NCBI RefSeq assembly: GCF_009650095.1 | Contig: NZ_CP045915.1 | Span: 3,100,001 to 3,164,000, forward strand | DNA from: Gracilibacillus salitolerans | GTDB lineage: Bacteria; Bacillota; Bacilli; Bacillales; Amphibacillaceae | Reading direction: 5' to 3' | Length of the DNA: 64,000 nucleotides | Shown: positions 16,220 to 54,090 of the stretch, one piece after another | Position numbering within the stretch: position 1 is the stretch's first letter | Layout: each line of letters opens with the position of its first letter | Notes under the pieces: generated by a model | Seen by the model: the letters and a program-made list of their open reading frames with translations, nothing else | Told to the model about the DNA's origin: nothing | The model's database searches: none | Position numbers and translations under genes: made by a program

Positions 16220-16348
16220 TAACTTAAACAGGAGAATAAATACTTTAAAATAGTATTTAACACAAACTTATATTGCTATCAGATTTAACTTTGTCCACTA
16301 CTTTTAAACCAAGTGCAGCTTTAATTTTGAGTGTTATTTATAAAAAAC

Positions 16349-16386
16349 GGTTGATACATTTTATTCATATATAATATGTATCAACC
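16349..16386 (+). terminator. Terminator between convergent oxidoreductase and VanZ genes
   Basis: GGTTGATACAT and ATGTATCAACC form an 11-bp stem followed by TTTTAATTCTTTTT on the plus strand; the minus strand also continues into T-rich sequence, so it may serve both genes. Confidence 0.75.
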
Positions 16387-16407
16387 TTTTAATTCTTTTT
16401 CAACAAT

Positions 16408-16420
16408 CGCTACCCGTTAA
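16408..16420 (-). repeat. Island junction motif after the vanZ stop
   Basis: Plus strand CGCTACCCGTTAA. The same CCCGTTA core occurs after other minus-strand genes of the island and at the left end of both IS110 copies. Confidence 0.45.
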
Positions 16421-16893
16421 TTGAATGACTTTTTCCAATTTTTAAATAAAATAAAAATCAAAAACCCTATAAATCCACCTAATATATTTAATGTGATATC
16501 ATCTACATCAAATACCCCTAATTTAGAAGCATATTGAACCGTTTCGACAGTAAGGCTAAAAAACACTATGATAGTAACTGTTGGGAAGAAGAACTTCTTT
16601 ATTTTTGTTAAAAGGATGGGAAGTAAAGCTCCCATTGGGATGAATAATAATATGTTGCCTACTGTATTATAAAACCAAATATCAAAGTTATAGCTATGAA
16701 AATTAAATAAATAGGTTTTAATAGTTGTAAGTGGTATTAGATTATGGGATACATCAATTAATGGTTGAAAAATAATAAGTCCGCCAGAAAAAAGAAGTTC
16801 AATATCAACACAACTTAAAAATAATACGGTCATAATATATAAGCCAAACAGTAAGATAACGTACTGTCTAGATTTAATATTAACAACTAACAT
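16417..16893 (-). CDS. VanZ family membrane protein
   Basis: A 158-residue protein with four to five membrane spans. The family signatures are visible: NTVGNILLFIPMGALLP, a conserved Glu in TVETVQY, and GVFDVDDITLNILGGFIG near the C-terminus. VanZ was first described in teicoplanin resistance, but most family members have unknown roles and this one shows no link to vancomycin genes. It is the first minus-strand cargo gene from the left in the island, and its stop codon overlaps a copy of the island motif. Confidence 0.88.
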   Translation of the reverse strand: MLVVNIKSRQYVILLFGLYIMTVLFLSCVDIELLFSGGLIIFQPLIDVSHNLIPLTTIKTYLFNFHSYNFDIWFYNTVGNILLFIPMGALLPILLTKIKKFFFPTVTIIVFFSLTVETVQYASKLGVFDVDDITLNILGGFIGFLIFILFKNWKKSFN

Positions 16894-16976
16894 TTCAATA
16901 AACTCACCTCCTTAATATAGGAAGTTATGTCCAAGCAATATTAATTATTCACTGTTTCACTATTAAAACAGTACTG

Positions 16977-17114
16977 CTACCTTACTTCAATTGGAAATTG
17001 TACTTCTCTTTCATATGTTGAGCCAAATGCTTCAGCATTGATCTTTAAAGCATTCAATCGTAATTCTTGATAGATAGAAGCATCAGTTTCATTTAAAACA
17101 CGAATATTCATCAT
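16977..17114 (-). pseudogene. GNAT acetyltransferase fragment (N-terminal 44 residues)
   Basis: Starting at ATG 17114 or 17111, translation gives NIRVLNETDASIYQELRLNA and then AEAFGSTYERE, the typical opening of GNAT N-acetyltransferases of Bacillaceae (motif C/D region). It stops at TAG 16979-16977, far short of the acetyl-CoA binding motif A, so only about a quarter of the gene remains. GAGGAATAAGA upstream could be its original binding site. Confidence 0.75.
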
Positions 17115-17164
17115 TCTTATTCCTCATTTCAAATTGTTATTAAAGTTCACCTGCCCTTTACTTA

Positions 17165-17201
17165 AACAAAATAAGGCGAATATTCTTGTTAAGCATTCGC
17201 C
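17165..17201 (-). terminator. Probable terminator of the 17223-17552 gene
   Basis: GGCGAAT (17175-17181) and ATTCGCC (17195-17201) form a stem; minus-strand reading continues into TTATTTTGTTT. Confidence 0.6.
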
Positions 17202-17222
17202 CTCAATAGTTGAAGAATATAT

Positions 17223-17552
17223 TCAGTAATGACTTTTATCTTTATCTACTGAAACAGCTGAAATATTTGGCTCTTCTTCATTGTTATGTGGATGTTGTGT
17301 ATTTATAAGATAATGGATTATAGAAATTAAGTAACACAGCAATAATATGATGACCGTACCAATAGATAACAATACTGTTTCTATATGGTTTCCACCATCA
17401 AAGAAGCTGCTAAAAATAAATAATAGAATAATACTGATTACAAAGGAGTTGAAAAAATTCCAACATACTTTCTCATCAAATCCCCTTCCTATTACTACAA
17501 ATAAATCATTTGTTATTAAGTAAATCTGCCCATAAGTGAAAAAGCTTTCCAA
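17223..17552 (-). CDS. Hypothetical membrane protein, 109 aa, possibly 5'-truncated
   Basis: Two strong hydrophobic segments (FVISIILLFIFSSFF and VLLSIGTVIILLLCYLISII) flank a short loop, followed by a polar tail rich in Asn and Glu. I do not recognise the family. The frame opens with TTG at 17552 without a clear ribosome binding site, and a copy of the island motif lies only about 15 bp upstream, so the N-terminus may have been lost at the junction. Confidence 0.45.
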   Translation of the reverse strand: MESFFTYGQIYLITNDLFVVIGRGFDEKVCWNFFNSFVISIILLFIFSSFFDGGNHIETVLLSIGTVIILLLCYLISIIHYLINTQHPHNNEEEPNISAVSVDKDKSHY

Positions 17553-17566
17553 CTACTGTTTGGAAA

Positions 17567-17585
17567 CGCCACCCGTTAGTGAAAA
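17567..17585 (-). repeat. Island junction motif between NUDIX and hypothetical gene
   Basis: Plus strand CGCCACCCGTTAGTGAAAA. It follows the NUDIX stop by about a dozen bases and is close to the reconstructed empty insertion site of the IS110 elements. Confidence 0.6.
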
Positions 17586-17597
17586 AAGAAAATCATT

Positions 17598-18131
17598 TTA
17601 AATGCGACCTATTCTTTGGTTGTGCGCTCCCATGCTGTATCTCATATCAAATAATAATGCAATCAATGGGCCATGATAAGGAATAAATAAACCTTCTGAG
17701 ATCATATTAATGAGGTCATCTTTCGACGCCCATTTTACCTTTTTCACTTCTTCAGTCGGTAGAGAAAGGTTTGAGATAGTTAAATCAGTTTCAATAAGAT
17801 AATAATCATCAAATCCATTTTCAAAGTTAACAGTTAGAGAAGGGCGCCTATTTCGAAGGTTAAGTGTATAACCAATTTCTTCTTTTACTTCTCTTTGTGC
17901 AGCTTGTTGACTGGTTTCACCTGCTATAGCACTACCTCCTACGGTAATGTCCCACATGTTCTTCCAATCTTCCTTATCTGGTTGTCGCTGTTGAATCAGC
18001 ATTTCTCCAAGTTGATTAAATAGACAGACGTGAATCACTAAATGATAAGCACCTTGTTCGAACGTATCCCCACGATTCATTTGTTTGTCCGTCAGTTTTC
18101 TGTCCTTGTCGTAAATATCCCACGTCTCCAT
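17598..18131 (-). CDS. NUDIX hydrolase
   Basis: A 177-residue NUDIX protein. The NUDIX box is complete: GGSAIAGE, then QQAAQREVKEEIGY, matching GX5EX7REUXEEXGU at about 85-108. The N-terminal part (ETWDIYDKDRKLT) is like the Bacillus subgroup related to isopentenyl-diphosphate isomerase-like and nucleoside-diphosphate hydrolases; the substrate cannot be told. It is flanked on its 3' side by the island motif and on its 5' side by a gene remnant, which suits a mobile cassette. Confidence 0.9.
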   Translation of the reverse strand: METWDIYDKDRKLTDKQMNRGDTFEQGAYHLVIHVCLFNQLGEMLIQQRQPDKEDWKNMWDITVGGSAIAGETSQQAAQREVKEEIGYTLNLRNRRPSLTVNFENGFDDYYLIETDLTISNLSLPTEEVKKVKWASKDDLINMISEGLFIPYHGPLIALLFDMRYSMGAHNQRIGRI

Positions 18132-18184
18132 ACCCCCACTCCTTAATGCTATCTTGTCTTATCATTTCAACAACAAGTATTACT

Positions 18185-18300
18185 CTAGTCAAAATATTTA
18201 CCATACCAATTTCCAAGTTTCCCTTCTGCAATAGCCAAAACTCTTCTTAAAATATTTGTCGTATTGTCTAAAATGAAAGTAGCTTTGTTTATTAAAAAAA
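18185..18300 (-). pseudogene. Unidentified C-terminal gene remnant
   Basis: A minus-strand frame with no start and ending at TAG (18187-18185) reads ATFILDNTTNILRRVLAIAE and then GKLGNWYGKYFD. The composition is protein-like, but the family is unknown to me and there is no start codon or binding site. Possibly the tail of a lost gene. Confidence 0.3.
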
Positions 18301-18324
18301 TGTTTTTTTCACGTACTATATCAA

Positions 18325-18498
18325 TTAATTAGGTCTTTCCATTTCACTCATGAATAACCAGGAACTAAGGAACAATACAATAATGATTACGTATAATAGA
18401 ACGGTTTTCCATTTTGGCATGCTTCCACTTTTCAAAACTTGAACTCCTAGGGGAAGAAAAGCGATGCAGAGTCCAGCTAAAGAGATTATCGTCGTCAT
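18325..18498 (-). CDS. Small hypothetical membrane protein, 57 aa
   Basis: From ATG 18498, preceded by AAAGGAAC, the product has two hydrophobic segments (IISLAGLCIAFLPLGV and VLLYVIIIVLFLSSWLFM) and a short polar end. The family is not recognised. The upstream part of the same frame (to 18567) continues the frame of the adjacent prenyltransferase-like gene after its frameshift, so the longer 80-residue reading is probably not the native protein. Confidence 0.5.
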   Translation of the reverse strand: MTTIISLAGLCIAFLPLGVQVLKSGSMPKWKTVLLYVIIIVLFLSSWLFMSEMERPN

Positions 18499-18532
18499 AT
18501 TTGTTCCTTTTAATACACCAAATTGTTGTGGT

Positions 18533-19015
18533 TCATCTGAAGTTCGAATGGTAGTCAGAGAAGCCATAGCTTGTTGGGTAACATTTTTTTAAAGTCACTT
18601 GCACTAATTCTCGATATTCATATAAATAACCGACTAGCTCAGCGCAAAGATTATCTAGCCAGTACTGACTTGTTTCATTAGGTCTTGCATGCCAACAATT
18701 TAGTTCATAGTCATAAGTTCCAATTATGTATTGAATACCTTTCTGTACGATTTCGTCGTTTGATGTAGCACCTACTTCACTAAGATATTGAAAAGCCATA
18801 CTAGTATCCATTCCATTTGTAATAATGGAATGTCCCTCTCCCATATTTCTAAAACCACCATCTTTTCCTTGATACTCTTGTAATTTAGAAATTACTTCTT
18901 GAGGAGAACCATTTTCAAAATGGAAACGAAACAAATCTTGTTCTATGTTCTTACCGTTAATCATTAAATACTTACGTTCTCTTTGGAAATTTTCCAAAGA
19001 TAATATTTTGTTCAT
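18533..19015 (-). pseudogene. Prenyltransferase/terpene-cyclase-like protein, frameshifted
   Basis: The intact part has a squalene-cyclase-type repeat (LQEYQGKDGGFRN) and an alpha/alpha-toroid-like pattern (IITNGMDTSMAFQYL), as in uncharacterised Bacillaceae proteins of about 250-300 residues. Within an A7 run near 18585-18591 the frame changes: removing one A continues as TLKNVTQQAMASLTTIRT, whereas the present frame ends in an unrelated tail. The C-terminal third is missing and a membrane-protein gene follows directly, so both a frameshift and a deletion are likely. Confidence 0.6.
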
Positions 19016-19075
19016 AACTCACATCCCTTATGCATACGTCTATTATTTATTACAAGAAATATCCAGTAATCTCCT

Positions 19076-19183
19076 TTAAAAGCTCTTATTTTTCTTAGGA
19101 ATTTTTTCACCATTATTTGAATATGTTTTATCACTCAAATGAAAGAGATCGCCAATTTTACGATTATCTTGTTTAACTCTTGC
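19076..19183 (-). pseudogene. Unidentified C-terminal gene remnant next to junction motif
   Basis: A minus-strand frame without start reads ARVKQDNRKIGDLFHLSDKT and then YSNNGEKIPKKNKSF before TAA (19078-19076). The frame is closed upstream right at the island motif (19184-19200), as if a gene had been cut there. The family is unknown. Confidence 0.3.
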
Positions 19184-19200
19184 TAGCGGTTAGCTTAATG
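19184..19200 (-). repeat. Island junction motif
   Basis: Plus strand TAGCGGTTAGCTTAATG, sharing GTTAGCTTAA with the right flank of the first IS110 copy (TTTAGCTTAAG). Confidence 0.5.
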
Positions 19201-19224
19201 TTTTACTCCATTTTTCTAATAGAC

Positions 19225-19821
19225 TCACCTTAGGTCTTTTTCATAAATAACTTCACCATCGCTATTCAACCCTCGTAAAGCAATACTGAGATAGTTATTT
19301 TCCACTTCGTTCCAATGGAATAAAAACATGCGATGATCTTTTAACTGATAAGCTAACGTCACAATATCTTCTGCAGGGACTTCTTCATCCCAACCATACC
19401 CTTCTGCAACATCTAGTTCCACCTTATTTATTTCTGGGTCAGTAACAATACCATAATATCGCATCAACATGTAATCCTCTTTAATGGAGGTACCACCCCA
19501 AGAATGTGTAATATCTTGGTCGTCTTTAATTTCCATTCCACCAACACCACTACCTGGTCCCCAAAAAATACCAGCATGTTTGTTAACTAAAGTAGCTGAA
19601 AACCAGTTCTTATATTTTGATAGGAAAATTTGGACATCATCTAAATCTACCTTCTCTAATACCTCTGATGGACCATAATAATAAGTTCGTTCAGATTTTT
19701 CAAATGCTGCTTCTGGCGAAAGTTCGTAATAACTAAAATAAGGGGAGTCTTTAATAACAATAAAAATTAATAGAAATGCAATAGTCCATTCTATTATCGC
19801 TTTTATTTTTTCTCTATTCAT
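19225..19821 (-). CDS. Hypothetical membrane-anchored protein, 198 aa
   Basis: One N-terminal hydrophobic helix (IIEWTIAFLLIFIVI) suggests membrane anchoring with the bulk outside. The soluble part is acidic and aromatic with a Gly-rich stretch (FWGPGSGVGGMEIKDD) and no motif I recognise. It overlaps the preceding gene by 8 nt, so the two are translationally coupled and probably act together. No family can be assigned from sequence. Confidence 0.7.
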   Translation of the reverse strand: MNREKIKAIIEWTIAFLLIFIVIKDSPYFSYYELSPEAAFEKSERTYYYGPSEVLEKVDLDDVQIFLSKYKNWFSATLVNKHAGIFWGPGSGVGGMEIKDDQDITHSWGGTSIKEDYMLMRYYGIVTDPEINKVELDVAEGYGWDEEVPAEDIVTLAYQLKDHRMFLFHWNEVENNYLSIALRGLNSDGEVIYEKDLR

Positions 19822-20287
19822 TACCTTCCCCCTGATCTAATGAAAACTCCGTTTGAAACATCCGATCAAACCATTCGAAATCTACTACTATTGTTTCTAA
19901 ACCTGCATTCAGAGGTTCATAATTATTAATCGTGTACTGCCCCCATGTACGACCTGAAGAAGAGCCACTTGTTCTTCGATAAGTATTTCCTTGTTTATCC
20001 TTTAATGCAAGTGCAGATCCAGGAAATGACCATCCATTTTCATCGGAGTGTACCTCAAAAATTAATGAGGTGTCATCAGGTCCTAATACAAGATGTTTAA
20101 ACAAAATCTCATCATTTTCAAAGTTTACCTTTTTATCTAAATCAATCAGTACCGCATCCCCGTTATTCACGTTACCTTTAATATCCTCTGGTAACTCATT
20201 AGTTAGCCCTGAAAAAAACGAAATAATATTCGGTATAAGTGCAATCACACAAGCTATTATTATAAAGCGCCGGATCCATATTCCCAT
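19814..20287 (-). CDS. Hypothetical anchored protein, partner of the 19225-19821 gene
   Basis: From ATG 20287 (GGAG 8 nt upstream) the product has a basic start, one transmembrane segment (RFIIIACVIALIPNIISFF) and an extracytoplasmic part rich in beta-strand-like segments (GDAVLIDLDKKVNF, DTSLIFEVHSDENGWSFPG). It resembles DUF4179/DUF5643-type exported domains only loosely. The upstream ATG at 20368 has no binding site. It forms a two-gene operon with the overlapping downstream gene. Confidence 0.65.
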   Translation of the reverse strand: MGIWIRRFIIIACVIALIPNIISFFSGLTNELPEDIKGNVNNGDAVLIDLDKKVNFENDEILFKHLVLGPDDTSLIFEVHSDENGWSFPGSALALKDKQGNTYRRTSGSSSGRTWGQYTINNYEPLNAGLETIVVDFEWFDRMFQTEFSLDQGEGNE

Positions 20288-20417
20288 TACATCAACTCCA
20301 ACTTCTGAAAATGTTCTAATTACTTTCCACCTAATGTAAAAATGAATACTTTGGGATAAGCCATTCATCTTAGTCAGAATTCACACTTCAACCAAAATGA
20401 TTCTTTCTTCAAATCTA

Positions 20418-20474
20418 CTGCCAGTTAGTGGAACAAGGATGCAACTCCTTATTCAAGGAAAGCCCCGTTAATTC
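20418..20474 (-). repeat. Paired island motifs with internal hairpin after DHFR
   Basis: CTGCCAGTTAGTGGAA (20418-20433) and AGCCCCGTTAATTC (20461-20474) bracket a small AAGGA/TCCTT hairpin (20435-20450). This is the only place where both motif types are seen as a pair with a hairpin between them, which suggests the complete form of the intergenic unit. The DHFR stop lies inside the right-hand motif. Confidence 0.6.
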
Positions 20475-20961
20475 AACAAATTTTTTTCATATACATGAAA
20501 ATAGTAGTTATACGGATTATTATCATCCTTGATCCCTTTTTGGACAGATACTTCATTCCATTCCTCATAATTTACTTCTGGGAAAAAAGTACCTCCTTCG
20601 AATTCATGATGTATTTTTGTGATATACATCTTCTCAACATAGGGGAAAAACAAATTATAAATATGTTCTCCTCCGAAAATAAAAATCTCTTCTTCGTTTT
20701 TACATAACTCAAAAACAACTTCTAATGAATGGGCGATTTCACATCCATCAAAGATAAACCCCTTGTCTCTCGTCATAATAATATTCCTTCTGTTGGGTAA
20801 AACCTCCCAATTGATTCCAGGTTCTTCCTACCTAATATAATTGGATATCCCTTTGTTGTATATTTAACATAATCCCAGTCTTTAGGAATTCTCCAAGGAA
20901 TGTCATTCTCTTTACCAATCACTCTATTCTTATCCACCGCAACAATTAAAGAAACTTTCAT
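20468..20961 (-). pseudogene. Dihydrofolate reductase, single-base frameshift
   Basis: DHFR reduces dihydrofolate to tetrahydrofolate. The N-terminal frame (20773-20961) has MKVSLIVAVDKNRVIGKEND, with the catalytic-loop DIPWR; the C-terminal frame (20468-20776) has MTRDKGF, IFIFGGEHIY and the C-terminal beta strands. The frames join in order if one A is restored in the GGAAT stretch near 20785, giving GNIIMTRDK. Together they equal a full-length DHFR of about 163 residues. It is a cargo gene of the island; real decay or a sequencing error are both possible. Confidence 0.85.
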
Positions 20962-21057
20962 TTATCACACAGCCTTTTTTAGCTATTTTACCATGTAATT
21001 TATTATTTCTATTGAAATTCCTTGTTCCACTCTTGCACCCGTTCGTAATATAAGGTT

Positions 21058-21262
21058 AGCCAGATATTTAAAGAGTATCCTTTATTTTCTGGTTGACCTT
21101 TTTTTATATGGTCTTATTATAACGGTAGTCGGGGTAGAACGTCGCACCCGTGGGACTCGATCCCGTTAGCTAAACTGTTCACCCCCTACTTGTATAAACA
21201 TGTTTCAGGCTGGTTGGGACAATAGATCCCGTTTAACAAGCGAACCTATGACATTACAAGAA
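21058..21262 (+). ncRNA. Candidate IS110 bridge RNA, copy 1
   Basis: Two loops have the same build. Target loop: GCACCCGT (21144-21151), hairpin GGGA-CTCGA-TCCC (21152-21164), then AGCTAAAC (21168-21175). Donor loop: GCTGGTT (21209-21215), hairpin GGGA-CAATAGA-TCCC (21216-21230), then CGAAC (21241-21245). GCACCCGT equals the left flank (21035-21042) and AGCTAAAC is the complement of GTTTAGCT at the right junction (22682-22689). GCTGGTT equals the element's right end (22678-22684) and CGAAC complements GTTCG at its left end (21041-21045). Boundaries are approximate. Confidence 0.75.
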
Positions 21263-21310
21263 GCCTTTAGGGGATACCGACTAATTTATTATTCTAGGAG
21301 GAGATATTCT

Positions 21311-22549
21311 ATGAATCCAGTCGTTGGTCTGGATGTTTCAAAAGGGGAAAGTCAGCTCCAAGCTTTTTTAGATAAAGGTAAACCATATCGTAAAAGCTTT
21401 AGTATTAAGCATGATCTTAATGGACTAGGTAACTTACTAGAATTTCTTGAAGAAGTTGAAGACGCAGCTAATGGCAATCCACCTTCGGTAGTTCTAGAGT
21501 CAACTGGTCACTATCATACTCCCGTTATTCAATTTTTGGAGGAACAACAGTATGTTTATATTATAGTAAATCCTCTCATTTCACATCGTGCCAAAAGTTC
21601 AAGTCTGCGTAAGGTTAAAACAGATGCTGTGGATGCCTATCACCTTTGTGAGCTGTTTTATAAAGAAGAATTAGAACCTTATAAAAAGCGAGGCATTCAG
21701 CTATTAAACCTTCGCAATCTTACTAGACAACAGGAAAGCATTGCAGAAATATCCGCAAAAACTAAGTTGCAGCTGCACTCTTTGATGGATCAGGTATTTC
21801 CAGAATATAGAGGTGTATTTGGTAGTTTATATTCTAAGGTTTCGTTGCTTACTTTACTTGAATTCCCAACATCTGAGGCAGTTTTGAAGATGAGTGAAAG
21901 AGAATTAGCAGACAGGATTGGTGCGTTATGTAAGAGTCGTTCCGACCTCTGGGCAATAGAAAAAGCACAGAAACTAAGAGATGCAGCTCTTCGTAATCCA
22001 TTTAAGAAAAACTTATACGAGAGTCATATCTTTAATCTTGAGGTGTTGGTGACGATTGTTCTTCAATACCAAGAGCATCTATCGAAAATTGCGACTGAAA
22101 TAGATGCCCTCGCTAATGAAATTGAAGAATATCATATACTCCAGTCTATCCCTGGTATCGGAGAAAAAATCGCCGGCACGATTATTTCTGAAGTTGGAGA
22201 GATAGATAGGTTCAATGATGCCAAAAAGCTCGTTGCATTTGCTGGAGTAGATCCAAGTGTTTATTCCTCTGGTAAGTTTACGGCATCCGTTAATCGAATT
22301 ACTAAACGAGGATCCAATAGACTTCGCCATGCCTTATATATGGCGGTCCAAAGTGGTATTCGAGATTCTCGTAAAAAGAAGACAACAGATGATATCATGG
22401 CACGCAATAAAAGATTAAGAGAGTTTTACGATAAAAAACGTGAAGAAGGAAAACCCTTTAGAGTAGCAGTTATTGCATGTGTTAACAAGCTCTTACATTG
22501 GATTTACGCTTTACTAAAAAGCAGAACTACTTTCCAAGATATAGCTTAG
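21311..22549 (+). CDS. IS110-family transposase, copy 1
   Basis: A 412-residue IS110 recombinase. The N-terminal RuvC-like DEDD domain shows Asp8 (GLDVSKGE), Glu63 (LESTGHYH), and Asp105/Asp108 (KTDAVDAYH); a coiled-coil linker follows, and the C-terminal Tnp_IS116/IS110/IS902 domain has SIPGIGEKIAGTIISEVG and SSGKF...NRITKRGS with the serine region typical of the family. ATG 21311 is chosen because AGGAGG lies just upstream; the frame is open to 21200, but that part overlaps the donor loop of the RNA. A CCTTCC/GGAAGG hairpin follows the stop (22578-22603). Confidence 0.95.
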   Translation: MNPVVGLDVSKGESQLQAFLDKGKPYRKSFSIKHDLNGLGNLLEFLEEVEDAANGNPPSVVLESTGHYHTPVIQFLEEQQYVYIIVNPLISHRAKSSSLRKVKTDAVDAYHLCELFYKEELEPYKKRGIQLLNLRNLTRQQESIAEISAKTKLQLHSLMDQVFPEYRGVFGSLYSKVSLLTLLEFPTSEAVLKMSERELADRIGALCKSRSDLWAIEKAQKLRDAALRNPFKKNLYESHIFNLEVLVTIVLQYQEHLSKIATEIDALANEIEEYHILQSIPGIGEKIAGTIISEVGEIDRFNDAKKLVAFAGVDPSVYSSGKFTASVNRITKRGSNRLRHALYMAVQSGIRDSRKKKTTDDIMARNKRLREFYDKKREEGKPFRVAVIACVNKLLHWIYALLKSRTTFQDIA

Positions 22550-22751
22550 AAACTATATCTAACTAAATACAACAAATCCTTCCAATTACAACTAATAGGA
22601 AGGTTATTTAGCATGTTCTTTTTTAGTATATCATGGGTATTTTAATTTTTTTATTGAAAAATATTGACAAACTATTAGCTGGTTTAGCTTAAGTGAAACT
22701 CTTCACAAACACCTATCAATCATAAGAGTTAGATAACTTTATATCTTTAAT

Positions 22752-22989
22752 TTATTCAATATGTCTTTGCTCATGTAAGTATAGTAATTCAACCCATTGT
22801 TCTAAATATAATTCACCAAATGCGAGATGTTTCGTTGCTTTTTTAGATAGGACAGACTTATCATCGATTGCATGAAGAATATTTACCAAATTTCCACTTG
22901 ATTTCGTTAATAAATTTAACATATTTTCAACATCAAAAGGCTCTTCAGTTGGTTTAGCAATCCCTGGTGATTCAAATTTTTGGTTCTAT
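22752..22989 (-). pseudogene. DinB-family protein, C-terminal fragment
   Basis: Reading from about 22989 down to TAA (22754-22752) gives NQKFESPGIAKPTEEPFDVE, then NLLTKSSGNLVNILHAID and finally YLEQWVELLYLHEQRHIE. This is the last part of a DinB/YfiT-type metal-dependent four-helix protein, including the final HxxxH-like helix. The frame is closed upstream by TGA-TAG and has no start, so the N-terminal half is gone. It lies between the two IS110 copies. Confidence 0.65.
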
Positions 22990-23058
22990 CAGAAACTAAA
23001 TGTATAGGTTTATGGGCGACACTCTATTGCCCACTATTACTTGAATAACATGACATCA

Positions 23059-23541
23059 CTAGTATTCTTTTCGAATTAACCTTAAATGCCAAGGTAGCCA
23101 AAATCCAAATATAGCAATATATACCGGGATAGACCACCAAGTTTGCCACCACTTTAACTTCATGAATCCAACTTGAACAAGTAGCCACTCAGACAATAAA
23201 GAAATAAGTGTAAAAAGAATAACATACATCCATTTCTTTTCCTGTTTAAAATAATTTAGAAATATTACAGCGAAACAAGGCGCAGCGACTCCATAACTCA
23301 TTAAATCGCCAATACCTTCTTTTTTAGCGTCACCTAAATCGAAAGCATCTAGTATACTCCCCATTATAACTATATCTACTGTTACCGATAGAAAAGCTCC
23401 CACACCAAATGTAAAGTAAATTTCTCTCCAACTCAATCGTTTTGGCATGAAAAGCATATAAGCCAAAGCAATTACTCCTAAAATAATTGGAAGCCATATA
23501 CCTTTAGCTGACAAATCCATGTTTTGGATAAACTTTTCCAT
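23059..23541 (-). CDS. CBO0543-like membrane protein
   Basis: A 160-residue protein with about five hydrophobic helices and the conserved-looking WREIYFTFGVGAFLS and LLSEWLLVQVGFMKLKWW segments found in CBO0543-type membrane proteins of Firmicutes. Function is unknown. It lies in the 1-kb segment bracketed by the two identical IS110 copies and is transcribed opposite to their transposases. Family assignment is tentative. Confidence 0.55.
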   Translation of the reverse strand: MEKFIQNMDLSAKGIWLPIILGVIALAYMLFMPKRLSWREIYFTFGVGAFLSVTVDIVIMGSILDAFDLGDAKKEGIGDLMSYGVAAPCFAVIFLNYFKQEKKWMYVILFTLISLLSEWLLVQVGFMKLKWWQTWWSIPVYIAIFGFWLPWHLRLIRKEY

Positions 23542-23725
23542 TTATTTATCTTCCCCTTTAATTATAATATTTGACGCTTTTTAAATTGTGTATAATGATG
23601 AAGTTTTATACAAGTATTTGGATTTGCTATTTCCTTATTCCACATTACTGCTTCATTACTTCAATAAGACAGTAGACAGAGCACTTGCTTTCTTGAAGAA
23701 ACGCACCCGTTCGTAATATAAGGTT

Positions 23726-23930
23726 AGCCAGATATTTAAAGAGTATCCTTTATTTTCTGGTTGACCTTTTTTTATATGGTCTTATTATAACGGTAGTCGG
23801 GGTAGAACGTCGCACCCGTGGGACTCGATCCCGTTAGCTAAACTGTTCACCCCCTACTTGTATAAACATGTTTCAGGCTGGTTGGGACAATAGATCCCGT
23901 TTAACAAGCGAACCTATGACATTACAAGAA
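23726..23930 (+). ncRNA. Candidate IS110 bridge RNA, copy 2
   Basis: Same sequence as the copy 1 candidate. Target guides are at 23812-23819 (GCACCCGT) and 23836-23843 (AGCTAAAC); donor guides are at 23877-23883 (GCTGGTT) and 23909-23913 (CGAAC). In this copy the left target match extends by one more base, CGCACCCGT. Confidence 0.72.
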
Positions 23931-23978
23931 GCCTTTAGGGGATACCGACTAATTTATTATTCTAGGAGGAGATATTCT

Positions 23979-25217
23979 ATGAATCCAGTCGTTGGTCTGG
24001 ATGTTTCAAAAGGGGAAAGTCAGCTCCAAGCTTTTTTAGATAAAGGTAAACCATATCGTAAAAGCTTTAGTATTAAGCATGATCTTAATGGACTAGGTAA
24101 CTTACTAGAATTTCTTGAAGAAGTTGAAGACGCAGCTAATGGCAATCCACCTTCGGTAGTTCTAGAGTCAACTGGTCACTATCATACTCCCGTTATTCAA
24201 TTTTTGGAGGAACAACAGTATGTTTATATTATAGTAAATCCTCTCATTTCACATCGTGCCAAAAGTTCAAGTCTGCGTAAGGTTAAAACAGATGCTGTGG
24301 ATGCCTATCACCTTTGTGAGCTGTTTTATAAAGAAGAATTAGAACCTTATAAAAAGCGAGGCATTCAGCTATTAAACCTTCGCAATCTTACTAGACAACA
24401 GGAAAGCATTGCAGAAATATCCGCAAAAACTAAGTTGCAGCTGCACTCTTTGATGGATCAGGTATTTCCAGAATATAGAGGTGTATTTGGTAGTTTATAT
24501 TCTAAGGTTTCGTTGCTTACTTTACTTGAATTCCCAACATCTGAGGCAGTTTTGAAGATGAGTGAAAGAGAATTAGCAGACAGGATTGGTGCGTTATGTA
24601 AGAGTCGTTCCGACCTCTGGGCAATAGAAAAAGCACAGAAACTAAGAGATGCAGCTCTTCGTAATCCATTTAAGAAAAACTTATACGAGAGTCATATCTT
24701 TAATCTTGAGGTGTTGGTGACGATTGTTCTTCAATACCAAGAGCATCTATCGAAAATTGCGACTGAAATAGATGCCCTCGCTAATGAAATTGAAGAATAT
24801 CATATACTCCAGTCTATCCCTGGTATCGGAGAAAAAATCGCCGGCACGATTATTTCTGAAGTTGGAGAGATAGATAGGTTCAATGATGCCAAAAAGCTCG
24901 TTGCATTTGCTGGAGTAGATCCAAGTGTTTATTCCTCTGGTAAGTTTACGGCATCCGTTAATCGAATTACTAAACGAGGATCCAATAGACTTCGCCATGC
25001 CTTATATATGGCGGTCCAAAGTGGTATTCGAGATTCTCGTAAAAAGAAGACAACAGATGATATCATGGCACGCAATAAAAGATTAAGAGAGTTTTACGAT
25101 AAAAAACGTGAAGAAGGAAAACCCTTTAGAGTAGCAGTTATTGCATGTGTTAACAAGCTCTTACATTGGATTTACGCTTTACTAAAAAGCAGAACTACTT
25201 TCCAAGATATAGCTTAG
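23979..25217 (+). CDS. IS110-family transposase, copy 2
   Basis: Identical in sequence to the copy 1 transposase, including the Asp8/Glu63/Asp105/Asp108 RuvC-like residues and the C-terminal IS116/IS110/IS902 domain. The start is the ATG at 23979 after AGGAGG. Both copies have open, full-length frames and so could be active. Confidence 0.95.
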   Translation: MNPVVGLDVSKGESQLQAFLDKGKPYRKSFSIKHDLNGLGNLLEFLEEVEDAANGNPPSVVLESTGHYHTPVIQFLEEQQYVYIIVNPLISHRAKSSSLRKVKTDAVDAYHLCELFYKEELEPYKKRGIQLLNLRNLTRQQESIAEISAKTKLQLHSLMDQVFPEYRGVFGSLYSKVSLLTLLEFPTSEAVLKMSERELADRIGALCKSRSDLWAIEKAQKLRDAALRNPFKKNLYESHIFNLEVLVTIVLQYQEHLSKIATEIDALANEIEEYHILQSIPGIGEKIAGTIISEVGEIDRFNDAKKLVAFAGVDPSVYSSGKFTASVNRITKRGSNRLRHALYMAVQSGIRDSRKKKTTDDIMARNKRLREFYDKKREEGKPFRVAVIACVNKLLHWIYALLKSRTTFQDIA

Positions 25218-25427
25218 AAACTATATCTAACTAAATACAACAAATCCTTCCAATTACAACTAATAGGAAGGTTATTTAGCATGTTCTTTTTTAGTATATC
25301 ATGGGTATTTTAATTTTTTTATTGAAAAATATTGACAAACTATTAGCTGGTTTACTTTAAGTACACTACTTCACAATGTTCCTTTATAACCCCAGATTAG
25401 TCAAAATAATGTATGAAATTCGATAAG

Positions 25428-26102
25428 TTAATTGCTTACCTTATTCGTAATGGGTTCAAAAACAAGTCCATCTGTTGTTTGCACCTTTAAAGGTTCTCTT
25501 ATTTCATCTAAGCCTATCATTATGTAAGGAGTTTTACCCTTATCCCCACCTTCAACAATTTTAACAGTGATTTCAGTCGGCCCCCATTTACTTACACTTT
25601 CAACTACAATTTCTTTTCCTAAATATTTTTCGCCTAATCTGAGCGTTACTTGTTTTTTACCTTCCGAAATAGTGGAAGTCCTATAATAACTTTCATCCCT
25701 TCCAGCATCTTCTTTGTATGTTGTTTCTCCTTTATCAATAATCCAGTAACCTTGATCAGAATAGATAACCAACCCAATCGTCGCAAAAAATAGAATTGGC
25801 AGGATGGTAAGAAAGATTTTATCAAATTTCTTAAATTCCTGTGGTTCCCTCCTACGCACTAATAATGGCAAAAGAAGTGTACCAACAATACTAACCATTA
25901 AAAATCCTGCTGCTAAGAAACCGTATGCCATACCTTCAAAACCTCGAATCACAATAAAGCCATATGCTGTAACGAGAATAGAAAAAAGAAATGTCACCAT
26001 TGGTGCTAAATAATACTTACCATTTCTTTTAGATACTATAAAAGTAAACATAAAAATAATCGAACCTAAAACAATACCACCTAACATGATTAAAAATACC
26101 AT
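25428..26102 (-). CDS. YesK-like membrane protein with C-terminal soluble domain
   Basis: The N-terminal half has four hydrophobic helices with the pattern LGGIVLGSIIFMFTFIVSKR and GFEGMAYGFLAAGF, as in YesK-like proteins. After another helix (about 95-112) a soluble domain of roughly 100 residues follows, containing VTLRLGEKYLGKEIVVESVS. The extension makes it longer than typical YesK (about 90-100 residues). Role unknown. It is the last cargo gene of the island before icd, and an island motif lies about 200 bp upstream of it. Confidence 0.6.
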   Translation of the reverse strand: MVFLIMLGGIVLGSIIFMFTFIVSKRNGKYYLAPMVTFLFSILVTAYGFIVIRGFEGMAYGFLAAGFLMVSIVGTLLLPLLVRRREPQEFKKFDKIFLTILPILFFATIGLVIYSDQGYWIIDKGETTYKEDAGRDESYYRTSTISEGKKQVTLRLGEKYLGKEIVVESVSKWGPTEITVKIVEGGDKGKTPYIMIGLDEIREPLKVQTTDGLVFEPITNKVSN

Positions 26103-34730: not shown

Positions 34731-34851
34731 GCTGCGGAAAAATACTCCCTTTCCAGGGGCACGGCCTCAGCTAACTTGATGAAGAAATCGCTTCACCAAG
34801 TGGATCTTCGGCTCGCGCTATTCCCTCAGGAGTGTCGCATTTTTCCGCAGC
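34731..34851. repeat. GC-rich palindromic module A
   Basis: GCTGCGGAAAAAT and ATTTTTCCGCAGC are perfect 13-bp inverted ends of a 121-bp module that includes CTCCCTTTCCAGGGGCACGG. Sequences of this kind are common between genes in Bacillaceae genomes. Confidence 0.7.
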
Positions 34852-34945
34852 TTAGTATAGCTTTCTAATAATGCAACAGGAAAGCACATGAATATAGTTC
34901 CATGAATTCTCTCCTTTTCATAATCAGTACACTAAAATAACCGTA

Positions 34946-35025
34946 GGCAGAATGCGGAGACTCCTGTGGGACAGCGAAAGCTGAAGATCCACTTTGCAAA
35001 GTTAGCTGAAGCGGAGCGTTCTGCC
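34946..35025. repeat. GC-rich palindromic module B, partly inverted copy of A
   Basis: GGCAGAATGC and GCGTTCTGCC (one wobble) close an 80-bp module containing GCTGAAGATCCACTTTGCAA, whose complement resembles AAGTGGATCTTCGGCT in module A. Modules A and B are therefore related in opposite orientation. Confidence 0.6.
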
Positions 35026-45377: not shown

Positions 45378-45406
45378 AAAGGTCAAAGCATTTTGCTTTG
45401 ACCTTT
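45378..45406 (-). terminator. Terminator of ytkL
   Basis: AAAGGTCAAAGCA and TGCTTTGACCTTT form a 13-bp stem with a short loop; minus-strand reading continues into TGTTGTA after TTTT. It overlaps the bases right after the ytkL stop. Confidence 0.85.
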
Positions 45407-45408
45407 GC

Positions 45409-46089
45409 TTATAATTCTACGTGTTCTCCGGGTTTTAGATGAATGCCTTTTCCTGTTTTTACTTGGTTGCAGAATACCTCTCCGTCTTGTTCGATTAGCG
45501 GAAATGTGTTGTAGTGCATGGGCACGACTTGCTTTGCTTGTACCCAGTCAGCGGCAATTAATGCGTCCTCTGGTCCCATTGTAAAGTTATCACCAATCGG
45601 TAAAAAGGCTAAGTCAATATCGTTCATGTCGCCTATTAATTTCAGATCGGAAAATAGACCAGTATCACCTGCATGGTAAATCGTTTTTCCTTCTGCAAAG
45701 AATAATATACCACCAGGCATACCACCATAAATTTTGTTTCCTTCCTCATCCTCAAACATGGAACCATGGAAGGCAGGTGTGAATTTTACTTTGCCGAAAT
45801 CAAATGTATGTGCACCACCTATATGCATTGGATGTGTATTCAATCCTCTAGAACCAAAGTATACAGCTAATTCATTTGGTGCCACGATAAGACAGTTAGT
45901 TCGCTGTGCAATGCTTACGGTATCACCAACATGATCATTATGTCCATGTGTTAACAAAATAACATCCGGTTCTTGTGTGTCCGGATCTAAATCACTTGTT
46001 CCGTTCCCTGTGATAAATGGGTCAATTAAAATCGTATGGTCGGATGTTTGAATTTTGACACATGATTGTCCGTGGAAAGATATTTTCAT
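45409..46089 (-). CDS. ytkL: Metal-dependent hydrolase YtkL (UPF0173)
   Basis: A metallo-beta-lactamase-fold hydrolase of the UPF0173/YtkL group. The metal motif is [11 protein letters not shown] (about 50-60), with further ligands in [19 protein letters not shown] and MHYNTFP. The substrate is unknown. ATG 46089 gives the usual [10 protein letters not shown] beginning; an in-frame GTG 12 nt upstream overlaps the ribosome binding site AAAGGAG. Length 226-227 is typical. Confidence 0.92.
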
Positions 46090-46161
46090 GCAAATATGCA
46101 CTCCTTTTCACTATAATACTCTATATCCTTTTTCCCCATTTATTGTTTATTTAAACATGTA

Positions 46162-47712
46162 CTAATAATATTGCCAAGCCTTTTCATAGATTTCTATCAG
46201 TCGTGGGCTAATTAATGTATTCACCTCTAATTCTTTCTGATTTCCGTTCTTGTCCAATATATTTTCGTCTTCATCCTTACCAAAAATGGTTAAGCTTTGC
46301 AAAATCTCATCTGTTATAAAATCCGTGTCCACATTAATGGCTAACGAATCAACGTTAATCTGCTCCCTGCTTGCCATTACAAATCCCCAATTACCAAAAC
46401 TCGGTACGTCCACATGGAAATTTTCCACTTCTAACCCAGTGGCAGCTATCGTATTAGAAATCGTCCAATACACTTCGCGAGCAAATACAGGGCTTGTCGC
46501 TTGTATCATTACTGCGCCACCTGGCTGTAAATGGTTGCGAACAAGTGAATAAAATTCTTTCGTATATAATTTATTGAGACTTTCATTATTGGGATCCGGC
46601 AAATCTACAAAAATGGCATCATACCAATCCTCACTCTGCTCTAAAAATTCAAAGGCATCTTGATTAACAACTGAAACACGTTCTCTTTGTAATGAATGGT
46701 CATTTAATTCCAAAAGATGCGGATTCGTGTTGGCCAATTCTACTACAGCTGGATCTAAATCAACCAATGTTATATTGTTGATACTAGGGTATTTTAATAG
46801 TTCCTTCACGGCTAATCCATCACCGCCACCTAGCACTAACACTTCTTCATGACTCTCAGCATAAGCCATTGCCGGATGGACTAATACTTCATGGTATCGA
46901 TGTTCATCAATCGAACTCAACTGCAGCGCACCATCCAGATATAATCGAATGTCTTCGTTTTGTTTGGTCATGACAATTTTCTGATACTGACTTTCTTCGA
47001 GATGGATAATAGGATCTTTATAAATTTTCTGCTCAAAGGATAAAACCAATGACTCACCAAAAATTAAGCCGGCTATTAACAAGAGAGCGATTATCCCTCC
47101 AATTATTCCATGCAAAGTTTTTTTAATTAACTCCTTACGAAATAAATAAAGAACAACCAATGCAACAGAAAGATTGATTAGTCCTACTAAAAAAGCAGTT
47201 TTTACCATCCCTAATTGTGGTCGTAATAAAAAGACAAATAATAGACCACCAATCAGACCACCGGCATAATCAGAAAATAACACCCTTGCTGTACTTTTTT
47301 GCAAGGTAACACCTATGTCATTAGCTTTTCGAATTAATATTGGTAATTCTACACCGGTTAACGCTCCAATAATTAAGGTAATCGAATAAAGAAATAAGGC
47401 ATCCGATCCATTAGAAAAAAAGGCGGTTGCTGCAAACATGAGAAAGCTGGAGAATCCGCCAATCAAGGCTACAAAAAATTCAATATAAATAAAAGATAAC
47501 AGTAAATGCTTGGTTACTTTTTCACTTAAACTAGCACCAATCCCCATGCCTGTAAGGAATAAAGAAATGGTTAATGTATACTGCTTAACACCATCACCTA
47601 AAATATAAGATCCAAGCGCCCCGAATAGTACTTCGAATATAATACCGCATATCGAAACAATTCCTGATGCCCAATAAATAAAATGACTCTGTTTTAATTT
47701 GATTTCTTCCAT
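46162..47712 (-). CDS. Membrane-fused spermidine-synthase-like aminopropyltransferase
   Basis: The N-terminal half (about 1-215) has seven hydrophobic segments; the C-terminal half is a spermidine-synthase Rossmann fold with VLGGGDGLAVKELLKY, VDLDPAVVELA and AIFVDLPDPNN. Such proteins (often annotated polyamine aminopropyltransferase or SpeE-like) accompany PspA operons in Firmicutes. Whether it makes polyamines or modifies an envelope component is unknown. It is the last gene of the DUF4178-pspA-DUF4247-DUF350 operon. The ATG at 47712 is preferred over GTG 47724. Confidence 0.85.
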   Translation of the reverse strand: MEEIKLKQSHFIYWASGIVSICGIIFEVLFGALGSYILGDGVKQYTLTISLFLTGMGIGASLSEKVTKHLLLSFIYIEFFVALIGGFSSFLMFAATAFFSNGSDALFLYSITLIIGALTGVELPILIRKANDIGVTLQKSTARVLFSDYAGGLIGGLLFVFLLRPQLGMVKTAFLVGLINLSVALVVLYLFRKELIKKTLHGIIGGIIALLLIAGLIFGESLVLSFEQKIYKDPIIHLEESQYQKIVMTKQNEDIRLYLDGALQLSSIDEHRYHEVLVHPAMAYAESHEEVLVLGGGDGLAVKELLKYPSINNITLVDLDPAVVELANTNPHLLELNDHSLQRERVSVVNQDAFEFLEQSEDWYDAIFVDLPDPNNESLNKLYTKEFYSLVRNHLQPGGAVMIQATSPVFAREVYWTISNTIAATGLEVENFHVDVPSFGNWGFVMASREQINVDSLAINVDTDFITDEILQSLTIFGKDEDENILDKNGNQKELEVNTLISPRLIEIYEKAWQYY

Positions 47713-47783
47713 CTCACTCCACACTTCCTATGATAGTCACGATTGGAAAAGCCTGACCTTTAAAAATGGCCAGGCTTCTTGTA

Positions 47784-48179
47784 TTATGTGATTGATGCCC
47801 CGATTACAAATGCCAATCCGACAGAAACAGCAAACGAAATAATTCCAACTGCTATATTATTGGCTTTTAATTGTTCCTCAACGGAAAATTTGCGTGTTAT
47901 CCCTTCAAAAACAAGATACGCTATTAATTGCAATACGACACCATACGCACCCCATATCAGTGTTTCTACTACATTAATACTATGGTAAATAGCGAATGCT
48001 AAGATTATACAAATACCAATAATTTTTCCTGCTATGGATAATGCAATGGCATGATTCCCATCTCTTACTTGATCCCAATCTTTATATTTGGTTGTAAGCC
48101 ACTCAAAAATGGTAAGTCCGATAATGACAATGATAATTGCTGCAACAAAATAAATAAATGTTGAAATAAAAGGTTCCAT
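47784..48179 (-). CDS. DUF350 membrane protein
   Basis: A 131-residue protein with four membrane helices in a two-times-two pattern, matching DUF350 (YjfL-like): STFIYFVAAIIIVIIGLTIFEWLT, with the conserved EW, and a second repeat YLVFEGITRKFSVEEQL. DUF350 proteins recur beside PspA and SpeE-like genes, and are proposed membrane partners of envelope-stress systems. AAGGAGAGCTGAAT precedes the ATG. It is 18 bp from the DUF4247 gene. Confidence 0.85.
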   Translation of the reverse strand: MEPFISTFIYFVAAIIIVIIGLTIFEWLTTKYKDWDQVRDGNHAIALSIAGKIIGICIILAFAIYHSINVVETLIWGAYGVVLQLIAYLVFEGITRKFSVEEQLKANNIAVGIISFAVSVGLAFVIGASIT

Positions 48180-48197
48180 ATTCAGCTCTCCTTCTTA

Positions 48198-48863
48198 TTA
48201 TTTTCCTGTACTAGGTCCTCCTCCACGAAAAGACCCTAAACCTCTATTTTTAGTTACCCCACCCTTATTATAGTTACGAGATGTGGAGTAACCGCCGTAA
48301 CAGTCATTTGAACTACAGTAACTCCTTCTATTAGATACCCAATTATTACCAAAGAAACTATCGAGCATTCGGATAGTAAAATATGTAGTTAAGAAATTAG
48401 GTGAATAATTTTTTTTAACAAATTGTTCGCTTGCGACTTCGATAAATGTTGCATTATCTAGCTCTTCACTTTCTTTCAAGATGACAAACACATCAGAGTA
48501 GGCAAGTATTTGTTGACCATCGATAAAATCACTGATCTCTTCCGGTTGTTTAATCTCCGCAAATAAATCGGCTAATTCTTCTACTTCAAACAGTAATGTA
48601 CCATAAACATTTGCAGTTGTTTCCTCGCCCGTCACAGAATCTACAAACGGAAAATTGTCGGATATAAGTGCTTCCACATCTGAGTTAGTGCTTACTTCTA
48701 GTCGGTTAATAATTTCATCTTTTGATTCTTCAACCTGCAGATCATCCTCTGAAATATCACTGGATTCATCAAAAGCAGATAAATTCGAGAACGAATCTGA
48801 ATTACAACCAACAAGCAAAATAAAAAATAACAAGGTAATACTCATGCCTATCTTTTTATTCAC
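48198..48863 (-). CDS. DUF4247 lipoprotein
   Basis: A lipoprotein signal peptide is clear: basic start, hydrophobic core, lipobox LVGC with Cys at about residue 19. The mature part is acidic near the N-terminus (SSDISEDDLQVEESKDE), then a DUF4247-type domain and a Gly/Ser/Arg-rich tail ending in FRGGGPSTGK. It is anchored outside the membrane and probably works with the DUF350 and PspA products of the operon. Function is not established. Confidence 0.82.
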   Translation of the reverse strand: MNKKIGMSITLLFFILLVGCNSDSFSNLSAFDESSDISEDDLQVEESKDEIINRLEVSTNSDVEALISDNFPFVDSVTGEETTANVYGTLLFEVEELADLFAEIKQPEEISDFIDGQQILAYSDVFVILKESEELDNATFIEVASEQFVKKNYSPNFLTTYFTIRMLDSFFGNNWVSNRRSYCSSNDCYGGYSTSRNYNKGGVTKNRGLGSFRGGGPSTGK

Positions 48864-48982
48864 TCCAAGATCACCTCCTGCTTTACTTCTCTATGTATCC
48901 ATGTAGAAAGAGGGCGTCCCAAAAGCTAGCTCACTTAATTACGTAAACTAACTTATGAAACAACCCATTTTCCAACTGTTTG

Positions 48983-49651
48983 TTACTCTTTTCCTAGCTT
49001 CTTTTTGAGAGCTGCCAATTCGTCATCGACATCGCTTTTTTCAAATTCTTCAAATTCATCATCTAGTGACTTGCTTGCGGAAGATAAATCTTCACTTGTG
49101 TCTGCCTCTGCTTCAAATTGAAGAACTTTTTCCTCCATACGTTCAAATCCTTGTTTTGAAGCATCATTACCAATAGATGACATCGTACGGTTCATTTTCG
49201 TACGAGTTTTTGCAGATTCTGCTCTTGCTTTTAAAGAATCTTTCTTCAGTTGCATTTGTTGATATTCTTTTTTCATTTCATCTAATTTTTGACGTAGCTG
49301 ATCTGCATCTCGTTTAGCACGTTCCCAGGATTCACGCAACGTATTTGCTTGTGTTTCTTGTTCGTTTTTGTCTTCTAATGCACGACGAGCAAGGTCTTCG
49401 TTGCCCGCTCCTATAGCTTTTTCTGCTTGAGCTTGTCGTTTTTCCACTAATGCTTGTGCATCATCTGTCTTTCTTTTTAACATTTTTTCATTGGCAATTT
49501 GTTTGGCTACTGCCGCTTCTACTTCTCTAATATCAGATTCCATATCACGCATAAACTGGTCCAGCATTTTCACCGGATCTTCTGCTTTGTCTAACATAGA
49601 ATTCAACTCTGAACTAACGACTGTTTTTACACGATTAAAAAATTTAAACAT
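48983..49651 (-). CDS. pspA: PspA/IM30 family phage-shock protein
   Basis: PspA/Vipp1-type ESCRT-III-like proteins bind stressed membranes and form oligomers that limit leakage. The 222-residue protein is almost wholly helical coiled coil (about 25-190) with the amphipathic N-terminus MFKFFNRVKTVVSSELNSML that binds membrane. The C-terminal end (SLDDEFEEFEKSDVDDELAA) is the usual acidic tail. TAGGAGGAG precedes the ATG. It is the second gene of the five-gene operon. Confidence 0.94.
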   Translation of the reverse strand: MFKFFNRVKTVVSSELNSMLDKAEDPVKMLDQFMRDMESDIREVEAAVAKQIANEKMLKRKTDDAQALVEKRQAQAEKAIGAGNEDLARRALEDKNEQETQANTLRESWERAKRDADQLRQKLDEMKKEYQQMQLKKDSLKARAESAKTRTKMNRTMSSIGNDASKQGFERMEEKVLQFEAEADTSEDLSSASKSLDDEFEEFEKSDVDDELAALKKKLGKE

Positions 49652-49670
49652 ATTTAACTCCTCCTAATAA

Positions 49671-53838: not shown

Positions 53839-53981
53839 TATTGTTATCTTGCAAAAATTAGTCCCACAAATCAGTAGGTAAATTCTTACTTCTCACAATA
53901 AATAACCTTGCCCCAATAGTTCAATATCTCCGCAACTCTATATTAGCATAATATTCCAAAAAAACATTATCGAAATTTCCA

Positions 53982-54009
53982 GCAAAAAAACGACCAATGT
54001 AAAGGTCGT
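53982..54009 (-). terminator. Terminator of the HAD gene
   Basis: Minus strand ACGACC, 8-nt loop, GGTCGT, TTTTTTT. Confidence 0.75.
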
Positions 54010-54090
54010 CTTGTTGAACTCTAGCTCCCGTTTATATAAGCATTTTAGTCTTTCCTCTGGTTCACATGTGTATATTGGAAATATAAGTAA

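Follow-up and report, generated by a model that had tools for sequence, protein, structure and literature searches.

Closest described systems and comparison with this locus

Bridge RNAs have been predicted in 85.7% of the members of the IS110 group (in the part of PMC11208160 used here), and elements of the kind described in this study are already known; it is the target which may be new. The closest counterpart is IS621, and, as far as the available text of the two reports goes (PMC11208160, PMC11208158), our element resembles it in having its RNA ahead of the gene, within the left end, and in the order of 5′ stem-loop, target loop and donor loop. Also common to both are a left target guide (LTG) which equals the left target, a right target guide (RTG) which complements the right target, a core inside the guides, a discontiguous right donor guide (RDG), a transposase with DEDD and serine parts, and element ends which form a promoter when joined (here promoter-like). 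In contrast to IS621, the core is GT or TT instead of CT, although GT, AT and TT cores also supported recombination by IS621 according to the same part of PMC11208158. Further differences from IS621, as it is described in these excerpts, are a helix that connects the 5′ and 3′ parts of the RNA, an additional promoter-like pair that is kept within the left end, and a target which is frequently an intergenic repeat. The transposase comprises 412 amino acids, compared with 328 in the solved IS621 chain.

Two further systems are relevant, both described in the accessible portion of PMC11187229. The seekRNA of ISEc21, an element of IS110 type, shares with our element the upstream noncoding region, the target-matching stretches of a short RNA and the promoter at the circle junction (predicted here), whereas the target of ISEc21 is located within the transposase genes of certain IS3-family elements. 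ISKpn4 and ISPst6 are set, like our element, to a repeat between gene cassettes (cassette-like units here). However, they are of IS1111 type with the RNA downstream of the gene, and their target is a true integron attC; the repeat found here is attC-like in layout only, and no integron integrase was found.

The element and its transposase

The window, i.e. the whole stretch of 64,000 nucleotides of Gracilibacillus salitolerans DNA that was analysed, was compared with itself and contains the same 1,641-bp sequence twice (Table 1): the repeat spans 21035-22686 and recurs 2,668 bases further, on the + strand both times. In the whole genome there are six full-length copies (99-100% identity), a further full copy that is 75% identical, and three fragments. 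The self-comparison also shows that 34798-34994, about 200 nt, forms an inverted repeat with itself at 70% identity.

Element DNA was matched in 71 of 159 genomes of the family, the own genome counted in, and in 35 of 72,556 plasmid records. A phage collection searched with the element gave no match, and in IMG/VR one viral contig encodes a transposase that is 70% identical. Named relatives belong mostly to Bacillus-like genera; those analysed below are the best 80 of 432 confirmed relatives, and 111 left ends were aligned from their loci. An orthologous empty site was not found, the empty repeats seen being paralogous only, and the junctions of the element fit a scarless insertion in which no target sequence other than the core is duplicated.

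As is typical for the IS110 group, the noncoding left end (268 nt, 21043-21310) is longer than the right end (134 nt, 22550-22683). The listed open reading frame of 449 amino acids begins within the RNA region; the true start is likely at 21311, preceded by AGGAGGAG (21296-21303). Both Pfam domains exceed their cut-offs, the N-terminal DEDD family (PF01548) with 105.9 bits against 29 and the C-terminal domain (PF02371) with 87.2 bits against 21.3, as does NCBIfam NF033542 ('IS110 family RNA-guided transposase'). Compared by profile, the transposase can be aligned with the IS621 (8wt6) and ISCro4 (9t56) chains across both domains. D, E, D..D and S are in register with the IS621 positions, and S320, which matches the IS621 serine, is invariant in seven aligned sequences. 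Between the two matched domains our transposase has about 80 residues more than IS621.

Table 1. Positions of element, RNA, guide and target features in the window
Feature	Position	Strand	Evidence or remark
Site A repeat split by copy 1	21020..21045	-	Site model match
Left target flank of copy 1, including 2-nt core	21035..21042	+	GCACCCGT
IS110-group element, copy 1	21043..22683	+	1,641 bp including one GT core; identical repeat and junctions
5′ hairpin followed by T7, terminator-like	21054..21098	+	Arms 21054-21064 and 21088-21098; 3′ arm contains TTGACC
Internal promoter-like pair TTGACC-N16-TATTAT	21093..21120	+	Conserved among left ends
Predicted bridge RNA body	21128..21281	+	Closing helix 21128-21132 with 21277-21281; putative ends
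Left target guide (LTG)	21144..21151	+	Permutation test; flank identity
Target-loop inner hairpin GGGA..TCCC	21152..21164	+	Structure alignment
Right target guide (RTG)	21168..21175	+	Permutation test; complement of flank
Left donor guide (LDG), identical to right end	21208..21215	+	Junction comparison
Donor-loop inner hairpin GGGA..TCCC	21216..21230	+	Structure alignment
Right donor guide (RDG), including base co-varying with left end	21232..21245	+	Covariation rows
IS110 transposase, 412 aa	21311..22549	+	DEDD_Tnp_IS110 and Transposase_20
Right end of copy 1	22664..22683	+	TTGACA at 22664-22669
Repeat split by copy 2	23688..23713	-	Weak site A match, 12 bits; joined flanks 14 bits
IS110-group element, copy 2	23711..25351	+	Same strand as copy 1; RNA region 23796-23949

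Guides of the two copies and their own junctions

A preliminary description of this DNA had claimed that two loops, each built of a guide, a GGGA..TCCC hairpin and a second guide, precede each transposase, and they are indeed present in both copies (in copy 2 at 23812-23913). The guide matches that it had read from the junctions of copy 1 were all recovered at their places. In the target loop, the LTG GCACCCGT is identical to the left flank, and the RTG AGCTAAAC complements GTTTAGCT, which spans the right junction, at every letter. In the donor loop, GCTGGTT (21209-21215) is identical to the right end of the element, and CGAAC (21241-21245) is the complement of the GTTCG found at the left junction. 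Protein family, guide order, pairing strand and the location ahead of the gene all agree with bridge RNAs of the IS110 group (PMC11208160), left guides matching one strand and right guides the other, which the preliminary description had given as the arrangement of IS621-type bridge RNAs. For copy 2 the right target reads GTTTACTT and mismatches the guide at two letters.

All six copies with 99-100% identity share one target loop yet occupy six different sites, at which the left guide matches 8, 8, 6, 7, 6 and 7 of 8 letters, as counted from the flanks; this exceeds chance agreement. The copy with 75% identity (L007) has a different left guide, ACTGCCCGT, and its left flank CCTGCCCGT fits all letters but one.

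We are highly confident that this is an IS110-group insertion sequence whose left end encodes a bridge RNA, with target guides that co-vary with insertion sites among relatives; a circle, a promoter and RNA-guided recombination are proposed for it below. The RNA has two internal loops, of which one pairs with opposite strands of the target and co-varies with it, and the second pairs with the element's own ends. From the sequence we infer that the RNA is expressed and guides the transposase encoded downstream of it.

Conserved structure of the left-end RNA

The preliminary description had made its reading dependent on a conserved structured RNA in the left-end region, and such a structure is kept, with compensatory changes, across 87 aligned left ends. 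These are 87 of the 89 listed left ends, two being left out of the RNAalifold input. RNAalifold predicted the target arm together with the 5′ hairpin, and it recovered some of the donor arm as well as, unaided, the helix which closes both arms; 15 of its 44 pairs showed a two-sided change that was kept. In the drawn structure 98.7% of the cells are paired, two-sided compensatory change occurs in 16 of 41 pairs, and none of 500 shuffles equalled any of five measures; the drawn structure was partly derived from the same sequences, and the shuffle statistics ignore relatedness. Control structures that were slid along the alignment pair in at most 42.7%.

The case for the structure rests on covariation because the single sequence folds no more stably than its shuffles (z -0.26). 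A search of the 9-kb neighbourhood against Rfam gave a best E value of 0.83, far under the gathering score. The 5′ hairpin was not flagged in a plain scan since its loop of 23 nt exceeds the loop limit of the scan. Two further elements were considered: a helix CCCUA/UAGGG was dropped, being without real covariation support, and a GTA/UAC pseudoknot beside the closing helix is not claimed because no pair changed on both sides.

Guides and insertion sites among relatives

For the left side, 103 of the 111 elements had a usable boundary and gave 91 distinct combinations of guide and flank with 41 guides; for the right side, a boundary was present in 90 elements, which yielded 59 distinct rows and 22 guides. 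When an additional target base was permitted beside the core, the left guides matched their own flanks at 6.19 of 8 positions, as against 4.29 after permutation (sd 0.13, maximum 4.88); without the extra base the values were 5.22 and 3.76. The right guides reached 5.15 of 7 compared with 4.32 (sd 0.10, maximum 4.69). On neither side was any of 5,000 permutations as high as the own guides. Relatives sitting at sites unrelated to their loops, which had been named beforehand as an observation that would speak against guidance, are thus not the rule.

The result bears directly on another explanation, namely that the left end is merely a structured leader which controls the transposase, its flank matches being due to chance or hitch-hiking. 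A leader would likewise be structured, and the conserved 5′ hairpin with its T7 and the conserved promoter-like boxes would suit it; however, the own guides exceed all permutations on both sides, the matches were counted at a fixed place next to the junctions, and a base of the donor guide co-varies with the element end, which makes a mere leader extremely improbable; a leader function could hold at most as an additional role.

In 13 of the 91 rows the left fit was poor, with at most 4 of 8 letters matching although an additional target base was allowed. One of these is masked (L061); in two the left flank enters transposase-like sequence with unknown letters (L065, L087), and in L063 it is the right end of an element of this kind. 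L028 is a partial element, L018 has four extra bases and in L109 the match lies one base closer to the core; the others are L023, L036, L038, L083, L085 and L098. L098 combines a GCACCC guide (AAGCACCCGT) with the site CGGGGTGC (CGGGGTGCGT), and its right guide fits. It is possible that the guide changed after insertion, or that the insertion was half-matched. The L098 site seems to be the opposite strand of the same repeat. As a separate observation, the left flank of L063 ends in CTATTAGCTGGT, seemingly a natural junction of right end, core and left end.

In many elements of the CTGCCC class the guide match and the core are separated by an additional base, and two registers seem to be tolerated, even under the same guide (L071/L072). 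Left targets with the extra base include those of L016, L022, L070, L072, L075, L079, L089 and L097. The 41 natural left target guides with their sites show how guides drift with their targets, and the set also suggests tolerance of an additional base next to the core.

The last two bases of the left junction are GT in 51 of the 91 rows, TT in 18, GA in 12, CT in 3 and AT in 3 (4 other or masked), while the right junction is GT in 57 of 59 rows. Since the left junction is variable and the right one nearly fixed, the simplest reading is that the left junction keeps target bases and that the exchange occurs just right of them. Were the core TT or AT instead of GT, its second T would hold in all 93 rows used for donor covariation; in IS621 the second T of the core is near-invariant, as given in the part of PMC11208158 at hand.

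Donor loop and element ends

The LDG GGCTGGTT fits the right end of the element, and the RDG pairs with GTTCG and, past a fixed ACAAG, also with TAW. In all 93 distinct rows, one base of the RDG co-varies with a base of the left end: left ends with TCGTAATA or TTGTAATA go with an RDG in ..TTTAAC in all 39 cases (A with U), and those with TCGTATTA or TCATATTA go with ..ATAAC in all 54 (T with A). A single inherited change is unlikely to account for this because four elements (L007, L086, L089 and L116) mix the end of one class with features of the other.

Promoter-like strings and proposed mechanism

When the two ends of the element are joined, TTGACA-N16/17-TA(A/T)TAT results in 59 of 63 distinct joins (in copy 1, TTGACA 17 nt ahead of TAATAT), and inside the left end, directly before the RNA body, at least five of the six letters of TATAAT lie 15-16 nt past TTGA(C/A)C in 74 of 87 cases; the promoter-like strings are in part imposed by the patterns used to locate the ends. 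A plain promoter scan revealed no excess (2 found, 6.5 in shuffles). The −35 box of the internal pair doubles as the 3′ arm of the 5′ hairpin. This arm is nearly fixed and the 5′ arm variable, as would be expected if the 3′ arm were used twice, for hairpin and −35 box.

We propose that the element would leave its site as a circle, whose joined ends would create a TTGACA-N17-TAATAT promoter, and that the second conserved promoter-like pair in the left end could yield the RNA without a circle. The bridge RNA would bind the transposase, and the complex would most likely join the circle to the target through recombination at a core of two nucleotides, GT or TT.

The target repeat

The joined flanks of one copy (L006) match many short repeats within the genus. 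Since RNAalifold detected no base pair in the alignment of such repeats, the model built from 18 of them (R1) uses sequence only. At E ≤ 0.01 it matched 16 of 17 same-genus genomes; the own genome had 17 matches, one other genome had 21 and another 17. The matches often form rows on one strand, with a spacing of about 1-3 kb. Read on the gene strand, the module consists of a stop codon, site A (CTAACGGGTGCAAGAGTTNAACAAG), a terminator-like hairpin, a promoter string of extended −10-like form, site B (TTGTGCTAACGGGGCAGGTTAGTT) and the next gene. In 202 kb, made up of the window and ten loci most of which were chosen around hits, 55 sites of at least 18 bits were counted, compared with one in shuffled sequence; this count is partly circular because the models came from such loci, whereas orientation and position are not. 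Nearly all sites (54 of 55) lie outside open reading frames of at least 90 amino acids. Of these, 46 come after a same-strand gene and eight do not, site A lying a median of 57 nt past the stop codon in the 46 cases.

Among 75 distinct insertion sites, 46 match site A or site B at 8 bits (shuffles: 2 of 75), 43 of them in one orientation, and 29 match neither. Many guides in this lineage are set to repeats between small accessory genes. The 34 rows with GCACCC-type guides comprise 26 at site A, one at site B and seven at neither; the 23 with CTGCCC-type guides comprise nine at site B, one at site A and 13 at neither. A third type, CGGGTGC, appears to read site A on the opposite strand, and one of its three rows reaches the threshold.

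Many sites belonging to one repeat family, flanks could be alike for reasons other than guides: the element might land in the repeats by some other mechanism, and its loops, once copied from a flank, would resemble them for that reason. We hold this to be very improbable, since the guide classes track the form of the repeat (the CTGC class with site B, the GCACC class with site A) and, around the junction, left and right guide pair with opposite strands, which is also the case in IS621.

Simpler descriptions of the target were less successful. A search of the own genome for the joined target, taken as an 18-mer and allowing as many as three mismatches, gave no match, and short or strictly palindromic patterns were too rare to reveal a repeat (0; 2; 3, the last against 4 for the reversed pattern). 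The 12-mer GCACCCGTTTAG was enriched over its reversed control in the 159 family genomes, with hits that include unrelated sequence; in the window alone, with three mismatches, its frequency was not above that of shuffles. The target as a simple palindrome was replaced by the two-site module. A plasmid match to the flank of L004 contained part of the element and is uninformative on the site.

Cassette-like gene arrays

On the - strand of the window, small genes lie in a row at 16394-26102 (VanZ, NUDIX, DUF5044/DUF5643, DHFR and unknowns), with a HAD hydrolase gene at 53902-54627, and attC-like repeats accompany them on that strand; the arrangement resembles a gene-cassette array, and each of the two IS110 copies lies in such a repeat, the second in a weak match. 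A query from this row (16301-21034) had matches in 77 of the 159 family genomes, the own included, two candidate places being scored per genome here and in the control. Outside the query's own place, all 38 matches of at least 250 nt stay within one gene unit and none joins two; they cover NUDIX (15), the overlapping DUF5643/DUF5044 pair (9), VanZ (6), DHFR (5) and two unnamed genes (3). A control of equal length (45400-50133) matched 144 genomes, and among the matches listed many cross several genes and some the whole query; the control is fair but imperfect because its genes may be under stronger conservation of order. Single-gene units in one orientation, a repeat at the 3′ end of the gene and a lack of linkage between genomes are features of integron-like arrays, and they were found here.

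Genes of the arrays include NUDIX, DHFR, GNAT, HAD, isochorismatase and VanZ, kinds that are common in integron cassettes. Of 20 array proteins scanned, five had no Pfam match and some others match weakly. The integron integrase IntI (TIGR02249) exceeded its cut-off in none of 17 same-genus genomes and in none of 14 controls, so that the search has no positive control. Within the scope of this search, a canonical integron is not supported as an account of the target arrays.

Xer-like tyrosine recombinases, seven in all, were found in three same-genus loci: one within an array (L253:9932-10843, -), one about 1.6 kb from a site module (L252:8626-9462, -) and five in tandem (L254:5392-10128, +). 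Two of the seven pass NF040815 ('site-specific tyrosine recombinase/integron integrase') and one passes the XerS cut-off; these proteins are candidates for the recombinase of the arrays. In 21 A-B modules, including named Oceanobacillus and Neobacillus loci, the spacing is 79-113 nt, with one of 150. The complementarity of their arms is higher than in shuffled letters; however, an attC-type palindrome is unsupported because complementarity is no higher within modules than between them.

Integrons are extremely rare in Firmicutes, with one complete case and a few attC clusters lacking an integrase, as stated in the part of PMC9024848 used here. The guides point at an intergenic repeat which behaves like a cassette boundary in this integron-poor phylum, and they may thus reveal a system of gene exchange missed by standard searches for attC and IntI. 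In searches of open-licence literature on integrons, cassettes, intergenic repeats and IS110 targets in Bacillus and Bacillaceae, we recognised no description of such arrays, and an undescribed cassette-like gene array in Bacillaceae (the family being taken from the named relatives) is possible. A farther-reaching proposal, which we put forward tentatively and regard as somewhat doubtful, is that the guides of this lineage are set to a recombination-site-like repeat delimiting single-gene cassettes, that the arrays represent an undescribed integron-like capture system without IntI, perhaps run by Xer-like recombinases, and that the insertion sequence is its parasite, much like the IS1111 elements that exploit the attC sites of integrons.

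A minor observation concerns a single gene of the window. The DHFR-like gene at 20468-20962 (-) appears to be frameshifted, with the C-terminal 102 amino acids matching PF00186 and the N-terminal part lying in another frame.
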